Position numbers and translations under genes: made by a program. The notes under the pieces are model-generated. The model was not told where the DNA came from. It saw nothing but the letters and a program-made list of their open reading frames with translations, and ran no database searches. From assembly GCA_029550925.1 (NCBI GenBank), contig JAKPGL010000170.1, positions 1 to 37,558 of the forward strand: a stretch of DNA of 37,558 nt, written 5' to 3'. Below, one piece after another: positions 23,749 to 30,198 of this stretch. How positions within the stretch are numbered: position 1 is the first letter of the stretch; each line of letters begins with the position of its first letter. This DNA is from Planctomycetota bacterium. GTDB lineage: Bacteria; Planctomycetota; Planctomycetia; Pirellulales; Thermoguttaceae.

Positions 23749-24489
23749 ATGGATGATTCCCTTCCGAGGGATTGGGCGTTATTGGCCCAACAGGCGGAGT
23801 GGTTGACGCCATTTCGTGCAGTGCTTTTGCGACGGGCCGCGATCGCCCAGCGGCACTGTGTGCTGGACCTTGGATGCGGCCCCGGGCTGATCACGGCGGA
23901 ACTGTTGCGCCGAAGCGGCGGCCGAGTGGTGGCTCTGGACCGAAATCTCCAGGCCCTCGTGCAGTGTACGGCCCTTTACTGGGCAGAAACCAACCGGCAA
24001 CCGGCCCAGCCGATCTGCGCCAATGCCGTCCGATTGCCTTTTGCCGACCGATGCTTCGATCTGGTGTTTTGCCAGTGGGCACTACTCTGGATGCCGTTGG
24101 AAGAGGTCTTAAAAGAGATCCATCGGGTGCTGGAACCGGGAGGCTATCTGGCGGCGTTGGAGCCGGACTACGGCGGCATGATCGAATATCCCCCGGAGAT
24201 TACCTCGGCCGATTTATGGCGTGCCGGGCTCCGGCGGGCAGGCGCCGACCCCGAAGTGGGCCGAAAAATTCCACCCCTTTTGGCCAAGTTGGGTTTTCAG
24301 GTGGAAGTGATGCTTTTGGATCGGCTTCGGCCGGCGGATCCGGCTCGATGGAAGATGCTTCAGGAACTGCCGTTGACGGCGGCAGAACAAGCTCGGCAGC
24401 ATGCGGCCATGCGCGCCGAGGCCCAATTGCCGCCTCAAGCCGCCACGGTCCATCTGCCGATTTTCGGCATTCTGGCCCAGCGGGGCTAA
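23749..24489 (+). CDS. Class I SAM-dependent methyltransferase (UbiE/Methyltransf_11-like)
   Basis: A 246-residue cytosolic protein. Motif I is CVLDLGCGPGLITAELLRR, followed by VVALDRNLQAL, then a motif reading ANAVRLPFADRCFDLVFCQW and the post-motif EVLKEIHRVLEPGGYLAALE. This is the standard small-molecule methyltransferase layout. The C-terminal third (about 165-246) may shape the substrate pocket and I do not recognise it. The ATG at 23749 has GGAG about 12 bases upstream, a rather long spacing. It diverges from the sugar-isomerase-like gene and converges on the transporter gene. Substrate unknown. Confidence 0.82.
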   Translation: MDDSLPRDWALLAQQAEWLTPFRAVLLRRAAIAQRHCVLDLGCGPGLITAELLRRSGGRVVALDRNLQALVQCTALYWAETNRQPAQPICANAVRLPFADRCFDLVFCQWALLWMPLEEVLKEIHRVLEPGGYLAALEPDYGGMIEYPPEITSADLWRAGLRRAGADPEVGRKIPPLLAKLGFQVEVMLLDRLRPADPARWKMLQELPLTAAEQARQHAAMRAEAQLPPQAATVHLPIFGILAQRG

Positions 24490-24548: not shown

Positions 24549-26288
24549 TTACGGTTCCCAGGGACTGGAACCCCCTTCCGCTGCTGGAGGCGTCGGCCCG
24601 GCCGACTCGGAGGGTGGCGAGGGTTGGCCCCCTCCCCCCGCTAAGGAAACATCCGCTCCTGAGGCGGTAGGCGGAGCGGACTGGACGCCGGAGGTGGGCT
24701 TGGCCGACTGCTCCATGCTGGTAGGCGAGGCAGGTTCGCCGGACGGAGCAGCAGCTTCGGCCGCCTGGGCGTCTTGGCCGCCAAACCAGAACATCACCGC
24801 TACCACCGCGGCCAGCAACGCGGGCCAGAGCCAAATCGGCGGCCACCGGTGGTTGGCTACCCCTTGCCACTCCTCATAACTGACGACGCTATCCCCGTTG
24901 GCGTCTGCTTTTTTGAACACCTCCAGGAGTTTATCTTGCGGATAGATCGTTTTTTCTTTCACTTGGCCTTGTTCGTCTTTCTTCTCGACCACATAGCCCT
25001 CGCCCGGCAGATGCCATAAGACGTTCAGGTTTTCCAGTAAGGCGATCTTCGGGCCGCCAGCGTCGATCATGATCGCCTTCGTGCCAGGCAACACCTTTTC
25101 AAGCGGCGTCGGCGTCGGCTTTTGCGCTTGGAGCATCTCTTTCCATTTGGGCAGGGGTGTGGCATCTTGCTGGACGGGAGTTTCCGTACCTTTTTGGACC
25201 GCAGCGGCCACGGTCATCGGACCATATACGTCGCCGATCCAACCGGCCAATTTGGCCCCCACAAACATCCCCAGTCCCCACATGAGAAACGCCAAAAAGC
25301 TCTGCACACTGGCGCTCAAGCCGGGCGGGGCCTTCCGGTCCGCATAAATGAACGACGCCACAAACACAAAACAGTAGCAAAACCCATGCACCAAAAGCCC
25401 CAAAATAATCAGCGGAAAACTCATCGTGGCAAATAGCAGATACCGCACCAGCCAGGCCGTCATGCCGATCACCAGCACCGCCTTCAGTCCGATCTGGCTA
25501 ATAAACCAGGGCATAATCAACATGACAATAATTTCGGAGCATTGGCACAGGGTCATTAGGGCGGTCGGCTTGGGGCGATCGGTTTCCACCAAAAAGGCGT
25601 TCATCCACGTAAAGTAGAAGGTGAGCGGGATACTGATCAAAAAGACCGATAACGCGAAGATCAAAAACGAAGGGTCCGTAAGGAGCTTCACAGCGCCCAG
25701 GCCCAAGACATCCCCGCCGGATTCCGCCCCTTTGGGCGGGGTGTGCGGCAGGGTGAAACAGTAAAGCCCCATCAGAACCCCGCCGAAGGCGGCCAGATAG
25801 AAGAAGTTCGGCTTGGCGGTCCCGCCTAAGATAAAATCCACCACCAGCCCAGAGACAATCCAGCCGATCGTCCCCCACACAGCTATCCAGGAAAACTTAT
25901 CCCGATCATCGATATTGCGGAAGGCCAGCGAATTGGCCAGGGCCAACGTCGGCATAAAGCACAGGCAATTGACCAACAGCAGCCCCATCAACGGTCCGAA
26001 GGTCGTTACCCTCGAGGCCAATAAAAGACATAACGCCCCCACCAGATGCAACACGCCTAAGACGATCTGAGTCGGGAAAAACCGGTCGGCCACAAAGCCC
26101 ACAAAAAGCGGCGCAATGATCGCGCCTAGGGCCGTGGTGGTATAAATCCAGCCGATCTCCGCCCCGGTAAATTGGAGAGTGCTATTCATGTACCCGCCAA
26201 TCGGCACATACCACGAGGCCCACACCAAAAACTCTAAAAACATCATCACCGAAAGCCGAAGCCGAATGTTCGTTACTGCTGCTGCCAT
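24549..26288 (-). CDS. NupG-type nucleoside MFS transporter with EF-hand insertion
   Basis: A 579-residue membrane protein. The N-terminal 350 residues match nucleoside:H+ symporters of the major facilitator superfamily: LEFLVWASWYVPIGGYM in helix 1, FVADRFFPTQ between helices 2 and 3, and eleven hydrophobic segments to about residue 355. A loop of about 125 residues then separates helix 11 from helix 12 (about 483-503). That loop carries a canonical 12-residue EF-hand, DANGDSVVSYEE (462-473), with Asp462, Asn464, Asp466, Ser470 and Glu473 in the X, Y, Z, -X and -Z positions. The C-terminal tail of about 75 residues is Pro/Ser/Gly-rich. AGGAAGG precedes the ATG. Substrate is inferred; calcium sensing by the loop is a hypothesis. 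Confidence 0.82.
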   Translation of the reverse strand: MAAAVTNIRLRLSVMMFLEFLVWASWYVPIGGYMNSTLQFTGAEIGWIYTTTALGAIIAPLFVGFVADRFFPTQIVLGVLHLVGALCLLLASRVTTFGPLMGLLLVNCLCFMPTLALANSLAFRNIDDRDKFSWIAVWGTIGWIVSGLVVDFILGGTAKPNFFYLAAFGGVLMGLYCFTLPHTPPKGAESGGDVLGLGAVKLLTDPSFLIFALSVFLISIPLTFYFTWMNAFLVETDRPKPTALMTLCQCSEIIVMLIMPWFISQIGLKAVLVIGMTAWLVRYLLFATMSFPLIILGLLVHGFCYCFVFVASFIYADRKAPPGLSASVQSFLAFLMWGLGMFVGAKLAGWIGDVYGPMTVAAAVQKGTETPVQQDATPLPKWKEMLQAQKPTPTPLEKVLPGTKAIMIDAGGPKIALLENLNVLWHLPGEGYVVEKKDEQGQVKEKTIYPQDKLLEVFKKADANGDSVVSYEEWQGVANHRWPPIWLWPALLAAVVAVMFWFGGQDAQAAEAAAPSGEPASPTSMEQSAKPTSGVQSAPPTASGADVSLAGGGGQPSPPSESAGPTPPAAEGGSSPWEP

Positions 26289-27119: not shown

Positions 27120-28391
27120 ATGAAACTCTTCCCGGTCCTAATGAAAGAACTGTTGGATAATGTTCAATCTAGGGGGGAATCCCTAACTCCCCCGGTAATC
27201 CCCACAGAGGCCAATTCGTTCCCCCCAGAGCCAAAGGAACTTTTGGTCGAGATTCCAGACGTAACAGACCCGCCGGCGGGGGGGGCAATTCTGCCGGAGC
27301 AGTCAGCCCATCGCCCAGCGGGACGACTTTTCAGCCAAAGCCTTTCCGCCCGGATTTTGCTGGGTGGGGGATTGTTGTTATTTTTGATAGCGGCTATGCC
27401 GGTGTTGTTTAGGTCCCATTCTCCCTCTGAGGATGTAGGATCAAAACATCCTGGAGAGGGGAGGCAACCACCAGCTCCCACTGCCTCCGAAGTTCCCCAA
27501 TGGACCACCCCGGCCCAGACGGCTCAAGCCCCTTCGGGGACTGCTTCCACCGGCCCTTCCCAAAAAACACCTTCCCCGACCATATCTTCCACGAATCCTC
27601 CAGAAAAGGCATCCCGTCCTTCTGAACAGGCATCCCGGCAGACTGCCCAGACCCTGAACCAAACTCCAGGGAGCAATTCTTCTGCCCGGTCCTCGGCTGG
27701 CGAACCTACTTCTGCTGGAAATTCCGCCGGAACTCGAGACGGCCCCTCTTATTATCCGACCTCCATAAACTACCCATATTCCCAAAATCGCCAACTCGTC
27801 TATTATCCCGGTACGGATGGCAGGTGGTATCCTGTGCCTTTTCCTCCGGGCAAACCGCCGCAGCAAAATCTGGCCTCGGAAAACACTGCTTCCCCAGACC
27901 GAAATGGTTGGGAAAATCCTAATCCTCGAACACCAACCCCCACGTCTGCCTCCTCCGGGTACCCTTACCCTCGGACTGGGTATGGACCATCGACCCCATA
28001 TCGGGAGACTTCCCGGAAGGAAATCGTAGAACCTGAATCAACCTACCCGTCTGAAAATGATCCCCGGTGGCAGGTTCGTGCAAGAGGAGAATCCATGCCC
28101 GGGGCTTACCCATCAGGTTACAGTCCCGCTGCCAGGCAATGGAACCAGCCGGGCGATTTTTCTGCCCAGTCCCAAATCCCTTACGGATCGACTGCTCCCA
28201 CCCGGAGCATGGATAGGCAAAGTCCGTGGCGAGAAGGTGTTCCCAGGACGGAGCTGGGAGGCCCTGAGCCATACGATTCGGGAAATCTAGGCCAATGGGC
28301 AGAAGAACCCGGGGTGGCGCGGTTTAAGGGAACGATCGAAAAACCTACGGTCAGGAGTGCCTATGAAGGCACTGGATCAAGCCTTTATTAA
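27120..28391 (+). CDS. Single-pass membrane protein with long Pro/Ser/Gln-rich tail
   Basis: A 423-residue protein. A cytosolic N-terminus of about 78 residues is followed by one transmembrane helix (about 79-97, ILLGGGLLLFLIAAMPVLF). About 320 residues rich in Pro, Ser, Thr, Gln and Tyr follow and look disordered, with repeated YPYPRTGYG and PSYYPTSINYPYSQNRQLVY segments. No named family. The ATG at 27120 follows a weak upstream context; a TTG at 27081 is in frame but unsupported. Its last 29 bases overlap the start of the P-loop gene, so the two are probably translated together. A role as membrane anchor or cell-surface protein for that module is inference. Confidence 0.68.
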   Translation: MKLFPVLMKELLDNVQSRGESLTPPVIPTEANSFPPEPKELLVEIPDVTDPPAGGAILPEQSAHRPAGRLFSQSLSARILLGGGLLLFLIAAMPVLFRSHSPSEDVGSKHPGEGRQPPAPTASEVPQWTTPAQTAQAPSGTASTGPSQKTPSPTISSTNPPEKASRPSEQASRQTAQTLNQTPGSNSSARSSAGEPTSAGNSAGTRDGPSYYPTSINYPYSQNRQLVYYPGTDGRWYPVPFPPGKPPQQNLASENTASPDRNGWENPNPRTPTPTSASSGYPYPRTGYGPSTPYRETSRKEIVEPESTYPSENDPRWQVRARGESMPGAYPSGYSPAARQWNQPGDFSAQSQIPYGSTAPTRSMDRQSPWREGVPRTELGGPEPYDSGNLGQWAEEPGVARFKGTIEKPTVRSAYEGTGSSLY

Positions 28392-30198
28392 AGCCTATCT
28401 TCAGCAGGCGGATGGACTGAAGGCCAAGCCGGATACTCCACCTCCGGGATCGGAGGGGGAACGTCCTCCGGAGGGGCTTTCTCTGCAAGGTTCCTCGGAC
28501 TCACCGGTTGGGGGATCGAGGGGGCCATTGCCGCCCGCCAAGAAGACCTCCCGGCCGAGCGAACCAAGTTCTGGGCTGAGCGAGCAAACCCACCGGCCTC
28601 AGAAGATGACCCAAGAAGCGTCCGATCCAATCCCAGAGGCGAAAGAGCCTCCCAAAACGCGGGGGCATCGGGGGAACGCTTTGGCCAAGCGAGGCGATTC
28701 TCGAACAGTTCGCGTCTCGCTGGAAGAAACTCTATCCTCGGAAACTCGGCAGACGGTGGTGGGACTACCGAATCGGAGGGCCTTACAGCAGTTGGCTTCT
28801 GGGGCTTCTCAGACGACTCCATCTCGTCCAGCCATTATTCCAAGGCCCCATTTTCTTTCGATAGGCAGAGGAAAATTTTCACAACAAGAGGCCGCCTGCC
28901 AACCGCCTATCCGGTCTGGAAGCGAACTATCCGAGGAGTCCCAGTCGGCCTTGATCGAAGCGGATTCGAGTCAGGGGCCGGAATGTATTTTAGACTTTAC
29001 GGGCGGTTCGGCGGAGAAGTCCACTCCGCCGTCCACGGGGCAGGAAAAAACACAGAAACAAAAGCTCCCGAAAAATCCGCGTAAGGTCACCGTGAGGGAT
29101 TTAGAGATTCCCCGAGAAGTTTGTTTTTTTGAACCTCCTTCGCCGACAATCCCCTTACAGGAGGATGGGGACCGACCGAAGGTCCGAGGCCGTCCGGAGC
29201 TAGCCCGGCCTTCTGATCCTCCTCGGTTGAATCTCGTTGTGTTTGAACCGGCGAAGGAGGGCCGGTCGGTTGGCCCGGCGGCAGACAAAACCAGTTCGGC
29301 TGGTCCGGTAGGCGGGAAAGCGAACCGGGGAGAGCCGAAGGGAGCTTGGCCTTCGGACCAGGCGCTGAAAAGTTGTGATTTGACGCCCCAGAGACCTCTT
29401 CGTCTGCACAGTCCGCCCGAGGCGTATGTTTCAGGCGGAGCCAAGGAAACGATTTCTCCGTCTGGTTCACCGAAGCCCACCGGTGCGGATCGGAGCGTCC
29501 GGCAGGCGGCTGCGGAACCTTCCAAGGCGTTTTCTCCGCACTGGCGGGTGGCCCACTTGCATTGGCCGAGCGTCTGTTTGGCCTTGGAAGCAAAGGCATT
29601 GGGGGCGCTGGATCGAGTAGCCGATGCCATTCTGTCGGCCAGCCGGGATGGCAAGAAGATATGCGGATTTGCTTCCTTCCGCCGAGGGGAAGGGGCGACG
29701 ACGCTTCTGCTATGTGCGGCCCGCCGATTGGTGGACGGAGGACGGCGATTGCTGCTGGCCGACGCCAACCTACAGCATCCGGATTTGGCCAATCGGTTGA
29801 ACATGGCCCCCCAGGCTGCCTGGGATCAGGCGGCGGAAGGGAAGCGATCTCTGGAAGAAGTGCTCATCGAATCGCCGGCGGACGGAGTCACTCTTTTACC
29901 GCTAACGGATTCCAACCCACCGGTGCTAGAACGACTGGGGAACTGCTGGGGATGGGCGACCCCGGGGTTGACCGAGCTTCGCCCATTTTACGACCTCATC
30001 TTGGTCGATCTGGGCGCCTTGGAAGACCTGGATAAGGAGCAGGTTTCACGAGCGAAAAATAGTGCCTGTCCGGTGGAGGGATTAGTGGTGGTCCGCAATG
30101 GGCGGGTCCAGACAGATCGGGTGGAGATTGCCGATTTGCGGCGCTGGCTTCAAGCAGCGGGGATGCCGGTGATTGGCGTCGTGGATAATTGTATGTGA
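28363..30198 (+). CDS. BY-kinase/ParA-like P-loop protein lacking the Walker A lysine
   Basis: A 611-residue protein. About 400 residues at the N-terminus are low-complexity (Pro, Ser, Gly, charged). The C-terminal 180 residues form a ParA/MinD/BY-kinase-like domain. FASFRRGEGATTLLLCAARR (about 436-455) stands where P-x-G-E-G-K-S/T is expected, so the Walker lysine is Ala. LLLADANLQHPDLANRLN is the Walker A' region with D-A-N in place of D-A-D-x-R. YDLILVDLGAL is Walker B. There is no transmembrane Wzz domain and no C-terminal tyrosine cluster. The ATG at 28363 has AGGAG 5 bases upstream; the GTG at 28357 is too close to that site. It is 35 bases before the ExeA-like ATPase gene. Confidence 0.75.
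   Translation: MKALDQAFIKAYLQQADGLKAKPDTPPPGSEGERPPEGLSLQGSSDSPVGGSRGPLPPAKKTSRPSEPSSGLSEQTHRPQKMTQEASDPIPEAKEPPKTRGHRGNALAKRGDSRTVRVSLEETLSSETRQTVVGLPNRRALQQLASGASQTTPSRPAIIPRPHFLSIGRGKFSQQEAACQPPIRSGSELSEESQSALIEADSSQGPECILDFTGGSAEKSTPPSTGQEKTQKQKLPKNPRKVTVRDLEIPREVCFFEPPSPTIPLQEDGDRPKVRGRPELARPSDPPRLNLVVFEPAKEGRSVGPAADKTSSAGPVGGKANRGEPKGAWPSDQALKSCDLTPQRPLRLHSPPEAYVSGGAKETISPSGSPKPTGADRSVRQAAAEPSKAFSPHWRVAHLHWPSVCLALEAKALGALDRVADAILSASRDGKKICGFASFRRGEGATTLLLCAARRLVDGGRRLLLADANLQHPDLANRLNMAPQAAWDQAAEGKRSLEEVLIESPADGVTLLPLTDSNPPVLERLGNCWGWATPGLTELRPFYDLILVDLGALEDLDKEQVSRAKNSACPVEGLVVVRNGRVQTDRVEIADLRRWLQAAGMPVIGVVDNCM

Follow-up and report, generated by a model that had tools for sequence, protein, structure and literature searches.

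The window analysed in this study is the whole 37,558-nucleotide stretch of contig JAKPGL010000170.1, from a Planctomycetota bacterium of the family Thermoguttaceae, and it carries on its minus strand a gene for a transporter of the major facilitator superfamily (MFS), the features of which are listed in Table 1. The PF03825 profile matched residues 7-355 with 292.1 bits, against a curated cut-off of 25.9, which places the protein in this Pfam family. A sequence search of the PDB returned YegT (8zoj, E 9.8e-69) ahead of NupG (7dla, 4.8e-47; 7dl9, 9.2e-47), and YegT was also the top PDB match by fold when structures were compared. The protein had been described beforehand as a NupG-type permease; the assignment to the YegT/NupG group was confirmed, but the label is loose, as YegT is the nearer of the two. 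Judged from its sequence, the product is an inner-membrane MFS transporter of YegT/NupG-group descent, and it is treated here as a homologue by descent and not called a proton symporter. The nucleoside substrate named beforehand is likewise putative, with Ala136 and Cys306 standing where relatives have a conserved Arg and Asp. For YegT itself, ITC gave no significant nucleoside binding, according to the accessible part of the source (PMC11979927). One PF03825 gene is present in the genome of the window, and no second copy of the transporter gene was found there. The closest named relatives come from metagenome-assembled genomes, namely the Thermoguttaceae proteins L032 (81%) and L033 (75%) and the Pirellulales protein L034 (58%).

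The transporter gene is convergent with a plus-strand methyltransferase gene (23749-24489), and a 613-aa open reading frame at 28357-30198 matched VirC1 weakly, with 20.2 bits where the cut-off is 24. The congeners L032 and L033 share different neighbours (Iso_dh, ACPS, nitroreductase and protein kinase). No clue to the substrate was found among the gene neighbours in the window or in these two congeners, and neither an Rfam family at gathering scores nor a tRNA was detected in the window.

Table 1 Features of the transporter gene, with positions in the window and residues of the encoded protein
Feature	Position	Strand	Basis
PF03825 (Nuc_H_symport) MFS transporter gene, YegT/NupG-related	24549..26288	(-)	579 aa, stop within coordinates
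Ala136, aligned with the TM5 Arg	25881..25883	(-)	alignment
Glu252, aligned with the TM8 Glu (NupG E264, YegT E255), retained	25533..25535	(-)	alignment
Cys306, aligned with the TM10 GxxxD Asp (NupG D323, YegT D315)	25371..25373	(-)	alignment
Insert between TM11 and TM12, residues 355-481, predicted periplasmic; EF-hand domain with one canonical hand remaining	24846..25226	(-)	alignment, model
Region corresponding to hand 1 of relatives (roughly residues 409-420), lacking a set of EF ligands	25029..25064	(-)	alignment
Predicted E helix of hand 2 (residues 451-461)	24906..24938	(-)	AlphaFold model
Loop of EF-hand type (hand 2, residues 462-473) with ligands D462, N464, D466, S470, E473	24870..24905	(-)	sequence, Pfam, alignment
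Predicted F helix of hand 2 (residues 471-478), directly before TM12	24855..24878	(-)	AlphaFold model
TM12, residues 482-503, first residue Trp482	24780..24845	(-)	alignment, model
C-terminal tail, residues 504-579, Ala/Pro/Ser-rich	24552..24779	(-)	model mostly low confidence; cytoplasmic if N-in

AlphaFold modelling of the full-length protein with 34 sequences gave a mean pLDDT of 81.4, with TM11 at residues 325-354 and TM12 at residues 482-503. Between the end of the one (354) and the start of the other (482) lies an insert of 127 residues, in good agreement with the loop of about 125 residues reported earlier. Counted from a fixed column in TM11 to the start of TM12, the distance is 139 residues in the window protein against a median of 21 (quartiles 20-24) in relatives, the median being that of the 133 measurable proteins among 134 relatives that keep the TM5 Arg and fall outside the EF lineage defined below; the earlier statement that a short loop is normal at this place was thus correct for these relatives. 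The modelling that had been suggested as a check also predicted helices on either side of the putative calcium loop (residues 451-461 and 471-478), within a block of pLDDT 85-91 over residues 431-480. Residues 403-424 and 524-579 fell below pLDDT 50, and the stretch of the window protein that is aligned with hand 1 of its relatives, being loosely aligned and within the first of these regions, is approximate. Folded by itself, with 4 sequences, the insert gave a poor model (pLDDT 41). With the insert excluded from the count, Lys and Arg residues number 10 inside and 4 outside in the N-in topology; given this charge distribution and its place between helices 11 and 12 of an MFS protein so oriented, the insert should be periplasmic. 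The 76-residue C-terminal tail shows 26-29% identity to the tails of the congeners, compared with 85-91% for the core.

Residues 462-473, translated from the minus-strand open reading frame, read DANGDSVVSYEE. All five ligands that had been named for this EF-hand (D462, N464, D466, S470 and E473) were found to be correct, so that ligand positions 1, 3, 5, 9 and 12 of the 12-residue loop are all occupied. Position 6 is Ser467, where 14 of the 17 relatives aligned carry Gly, and the match to Pfam EF-hand_1 (18.2 bits, E 0.0017) lies below the cut-off of 25.4; because of these two features, the predicted Ca2+ site of the window protein itself is uncertain. The window protein has one hand only, and paired hands are present in L008, L213 and L214. 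Across the window protein and L003, L004 and L005, positions 1, 5 and 12 are invariant, position 3 is Asn or Asp and position 9 is Ser or Thr, with positions 2, 4, 6, 10 and 11 variable. The loop is not better conserved than its surroundings, as its identity to both congeners is 8/12 and that of the rest of the insert is 55-69%.

A single sub-threshold motif, which is all that the window alone offers, might be the chance product of a long polar loop. When the window's own loop was shuffled 200,000 times, the strict EF pattern appeared in 0.26% of the shuffles. The search for homologues with EF-hands in the same loop, proposed in the preliminary description, was carried out, and a strict EF loop was present in 41 of 69 long-loop relatives (score of at least 440 bits, loop of at least 80 residues) against 1.2 expected from shuffles, in a set gathered partly with a profile of 12 EF-bearing proteins and thus favouring EF bearers. 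With the window protein as the lone query, 11 of 29 relatives had the strict loop. Among 215 proteins, all 41 motif bearers belong to one lineage, termed here the EF lineage, with none elsewhere, and the EF loop was found in none of the 20 further proteins chosen from the phylum-wide search. These counts, together with a constant register of the motif to the Trp at TM12, led us to reject chance, which we regard as extremely improbable. Of the earlier proposal of a calcium site adjoining the last helix, the EF-hand-type site, its flanking helices and its position before TM12, which starts at residue 482, were upheld; gated uptake was not.

Alignment of 56 related loops revealed two hand positions, hand 1 and hand 2. 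Hand 1 is canonical in 26 of these loops (including L132, in which the hand lies at a contig end, also matches as hand 2 and was counted as hand 1) and hand 2 in five (the window protein, L003, L004, L005 and L008), while 26 have no canonical hand, one of them (L135) being cut by the contig end. A search of the order, in a sample of 396 genomes and with 20 fetched stretches (the phylum search sampled 392), added L213 and L214 with both hands, L212 and L215-L218 with hand 1 only, and L220-L222 and L224 with hand 2 only. The view of L008 as one lone intermediate was abandoned after this search. Canonical hand 2 has its first Asp exactly 20 residues before the TM12 Trp in 11 of 11 proteins. The same register was followed in 17 proteins taken as members of the hand-2 subclades after the tree had been seen, with no filter for the motif: Asp is found at position 1 in 16, Asp or Asn at position 3 in 16, Asp, Asn or Ser at position 5 in 12, Val, Ile or Leu at position 8 in 16, Thr or Ser at position 9 in 17, Glu at position 12 in 13 (Gln in L215-L218) and Trp at position 13 in 17, with positions 2, 4, 7 and 11 variable. 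In L213, residues 470-492, corresponding to hand 2, score above the Pfam cut-offs of EF-hand_1, EF-hand_5 and EF-hand_6.

Phylogenetic analysis with IQ-TREE was performed on 99 core sequences, selected from the 215 proteins by a score of at least 440 bits and a gap filter and supplemented with hand-picked outgroups, and the tree was rooted by hand on L060/L083. The EF lineage formed a single group of 75 of the 99 tips (support 88.6/93), with the short-loop protein L011 as its sister (88/96). L135 is cut inside the motif and was excluded from the hand counts, leaving 74 scored tips, of which 3 have both hands, 30 hand 1 only, 8 (among them the genus of the window) hand 2 only and 33 neither; as further stretches were fetched by choice, mostly on score and open-frame length, these counts are not natural frequencies. 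Tips without a motif number 58, comprising 34 inside the lineage (L135 included) and 24 outside. By genome label, the lineage is found within the order in families f1, f2, f5, f7, f10, f16 and f116; L219, which has Thr at position 8, is its sole representative in f16. L142, from a genome outside the order (G366), has no canonical hand and nests within an f1 subclade, in the window's family, which indicates either transfer or a misbinned contig.

If this pattern derives from a two-hand ancestor with no regain, hand 1 must have been lost 8 times and hand 2 lost 6 times. The window protein has probably kept one half of an older two-part domain of calcium-binding type that was common to its relatives. 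It is also possible that a one-hand insert gained hand 1 later, because no hand 1 is seen in the subclade that branches first (hand 2 only in L220-L222 and L224, the position-8 Thr in L219, and the hand lost in L223).

The transmembrane core of the window protein also departs from that of NupG. NupG Asp323 and YegT Asp315, in the TM10 GxxxD motif, are proposed protonation sites, and the D323A mutant of NupG shows similar uridine binding at pH 6 and pH 8, as given in the accessible part of PMC11979927. In the window protein the motif reads GFCYC, with Cys in place of the Asp. In the first tree, of 193 sequences, the TM10 Asp is absent from all 66 proteins of the window's clade (Ser in 35, Ala in 22, Val in 5 and Cys in 4) and present in 118 of the 127 outside it, the other 9 being without it. 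The TM5 Arg (NupG R136), which we take to have a role in substrate binding, is likewise absent from all 66 (Phe in 52, Ala in 12, Val in 1 and Thr in 1) and present in all 118 Asp-keeping relatives outside the clade. The TM8 Glu is Glu in 211 of the 215 proteins, including the window protein. The joint loss of Asp and Arg maps to one event, and the node uniting the clade without the Asp has support of 79.6/77. Both residues are retained in 13 members of the EF lineage, so the EF domain was probably acquired before they were lost; L213 and L214 are among the relatives that keep the Asp. Because the clade lacks the TM10 Asp and the TM5 Arg, and given the behaviour of NupG D323A at the two pH values (PMC11979927, accessible part), its proton coupling is probably altered relative to NupG, and its substrate perhaps differs as well. 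In a set of 20 further proteins (the second frame of L239 having been dropped), 10 are without the TM10 Asp and all 20 have the TM5 Arg; ten short-loop relatives, L243-L252, have Ala, Gly or Cys for the Asp and keep the Arg.

We lean towards a reading in which the periplasmic TM11-TM12 loop of the transporter acquired an EF-hand domain in an ancestor within the Pirellulales lineage, a domain with two hands being the simplest case, and in which the surviving hand now serves a Ca2+-stabilised periplasmic cap. In the lineage of the window, hand 1 would have gone and hand 2 been left, joined almost directly to TM12. Filling of the surviving hand by periplasmic Ca2+ would fix its two helices, and the fixed hand would anchor the cap domain where TM11 and TM12 end on the outer side, and there the cap might stabilise the carrier or shape its outer mouth. 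Ca2+ usually swings in the cytosol and not in the periplasm, where a site normally meets enough Ca2+ to be filled; a stabilising cofactor is for this reason likelier than a switch. One hand or the other has frequently survived, which suggests that a single filled site can suffice for the cap, and the tips with neither hand imply that Ca2+ is not needed throughout the EF lineage.

The preliminary description had proposed calcium-gated uptake, in which Ca2+ in the loop would switch or tune transport; ferroportin, an MFS exporter, offers a case of such control by extracellular Ca2+. The hand adjoins TM12 in the AlphaFold model, and elements between TM11 and TM12 matter to transport in Rv1410/MHAS2168 and in QacA, where truncating or deleting them impairs or abolishes it (PMC10576003, accessible part); ferroportin, moreover, requires extracellular Ca2+ with a K0.5 of 0.8 mM, although its Ca2+ site lies among the transmembrane helices and not in a loop hand (PMC6079014, accessible part). 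Homologues that keep the loop without the ligand residues, which the preliminary description had itself named as evidence against gating, proved to be many, the 26 of the 56 aligned loops described above among them. As the loop is predicted to lie in the periplasm, where Ca2+ rarely swings, and so many homologues lack the ligands, gating was not supported and we consider it unlikely. The hand could instead be a relic that no longer binds Ca2+ in the genus of the window, with the insert acting as a spacer or docking surface. Ser at position 6, the Pfam score under threshold, the disappearance of hand 1 amid the repeated losses that a two-hand ancestor implies, and the occurrence of unrelated inserts at the same place in other lineages are all consistent with a relic, but in the window protein and L003, L004 and L005 the ligand positions are held fixed or restricted as other positions vary, and we find this reading doubtful.

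A more elaborate proposal accepts that a two-EF-hand domain came first and that the window's clade lost the Asp and Arg afterwards, and adds that protons have ceased to drive uptake, which would depend on external Ca2+ acting at one surviving hand, not the same hand in every lineage; we judge it quite improbable. The related idea that the EF domain replaced proton coupling is weakened by the 13 EF-lineage proteins that keep both residues, and by the short-loop relatives that also lose the Asp. For the Ca2+-stabilised cap, which we continue to favour, known systems offer partial parallels. YegT and NupG, of the same NHS family (PF03825), are alike in sequence, fold and the TM8 Glu, and differ in having neither the 127-residue EF insert nor the substitutions by Cys306 and Ala136. 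The MFS exporters Rv1410/MHAS2168 and QacA resemble the window protein in carrying a TM11-TM12 element outside the membrane; MHAS2168 differs in being a 14-helix exporter with an element of 31-38 residues made of extended helices, for which no EF-hand is described in the accessible part of PMC10576003. Ferroportin and BbFpn are MFS proteins that need Ca2+, the ion being a cofactor and not transported, and they differ as metal exporters (PMC6079014, accessible part). EF or EF-like loops are found in calerythrin, EfhP, the Caulobacter CaBP and an EF-hand-like alpha-amylase, which, as far as the accessible parts of the sources go, are separate proteins or enzymes and not inserts in transporter loops; at the EF-like sites of amylases, Ca2+ aids folding and thermostability (PMC10574481, accessible part). 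Among the literature matches listed, drawn from papers outside subscription journals, no description of an EF-hand in an MFS loop was found. The natural variants, with both hands, either or none and with the Asp present or absent, form a set for testing a calcium domain on an MFS carrier, and the same set would allow the need for the TM10 Asp in coupling to be tested with natural proteins instead of point mutants.

The site between TM11 and TM12 looks like an insertion hotspot, because other Planctomycetota lineages bear unrelated inserts there. These are seen in L166, L203, L020, L227, L229, L233 and L234, are coiled-coil-like by eye, and occur in proteins that keep both the TM10 Asp and the TM5 Arg. 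In g21, a genus of the window's own family (L196, L198 and L202), and also in L027, an Ala-rich, repeat-like 11-12 loop replaces the EF domain.
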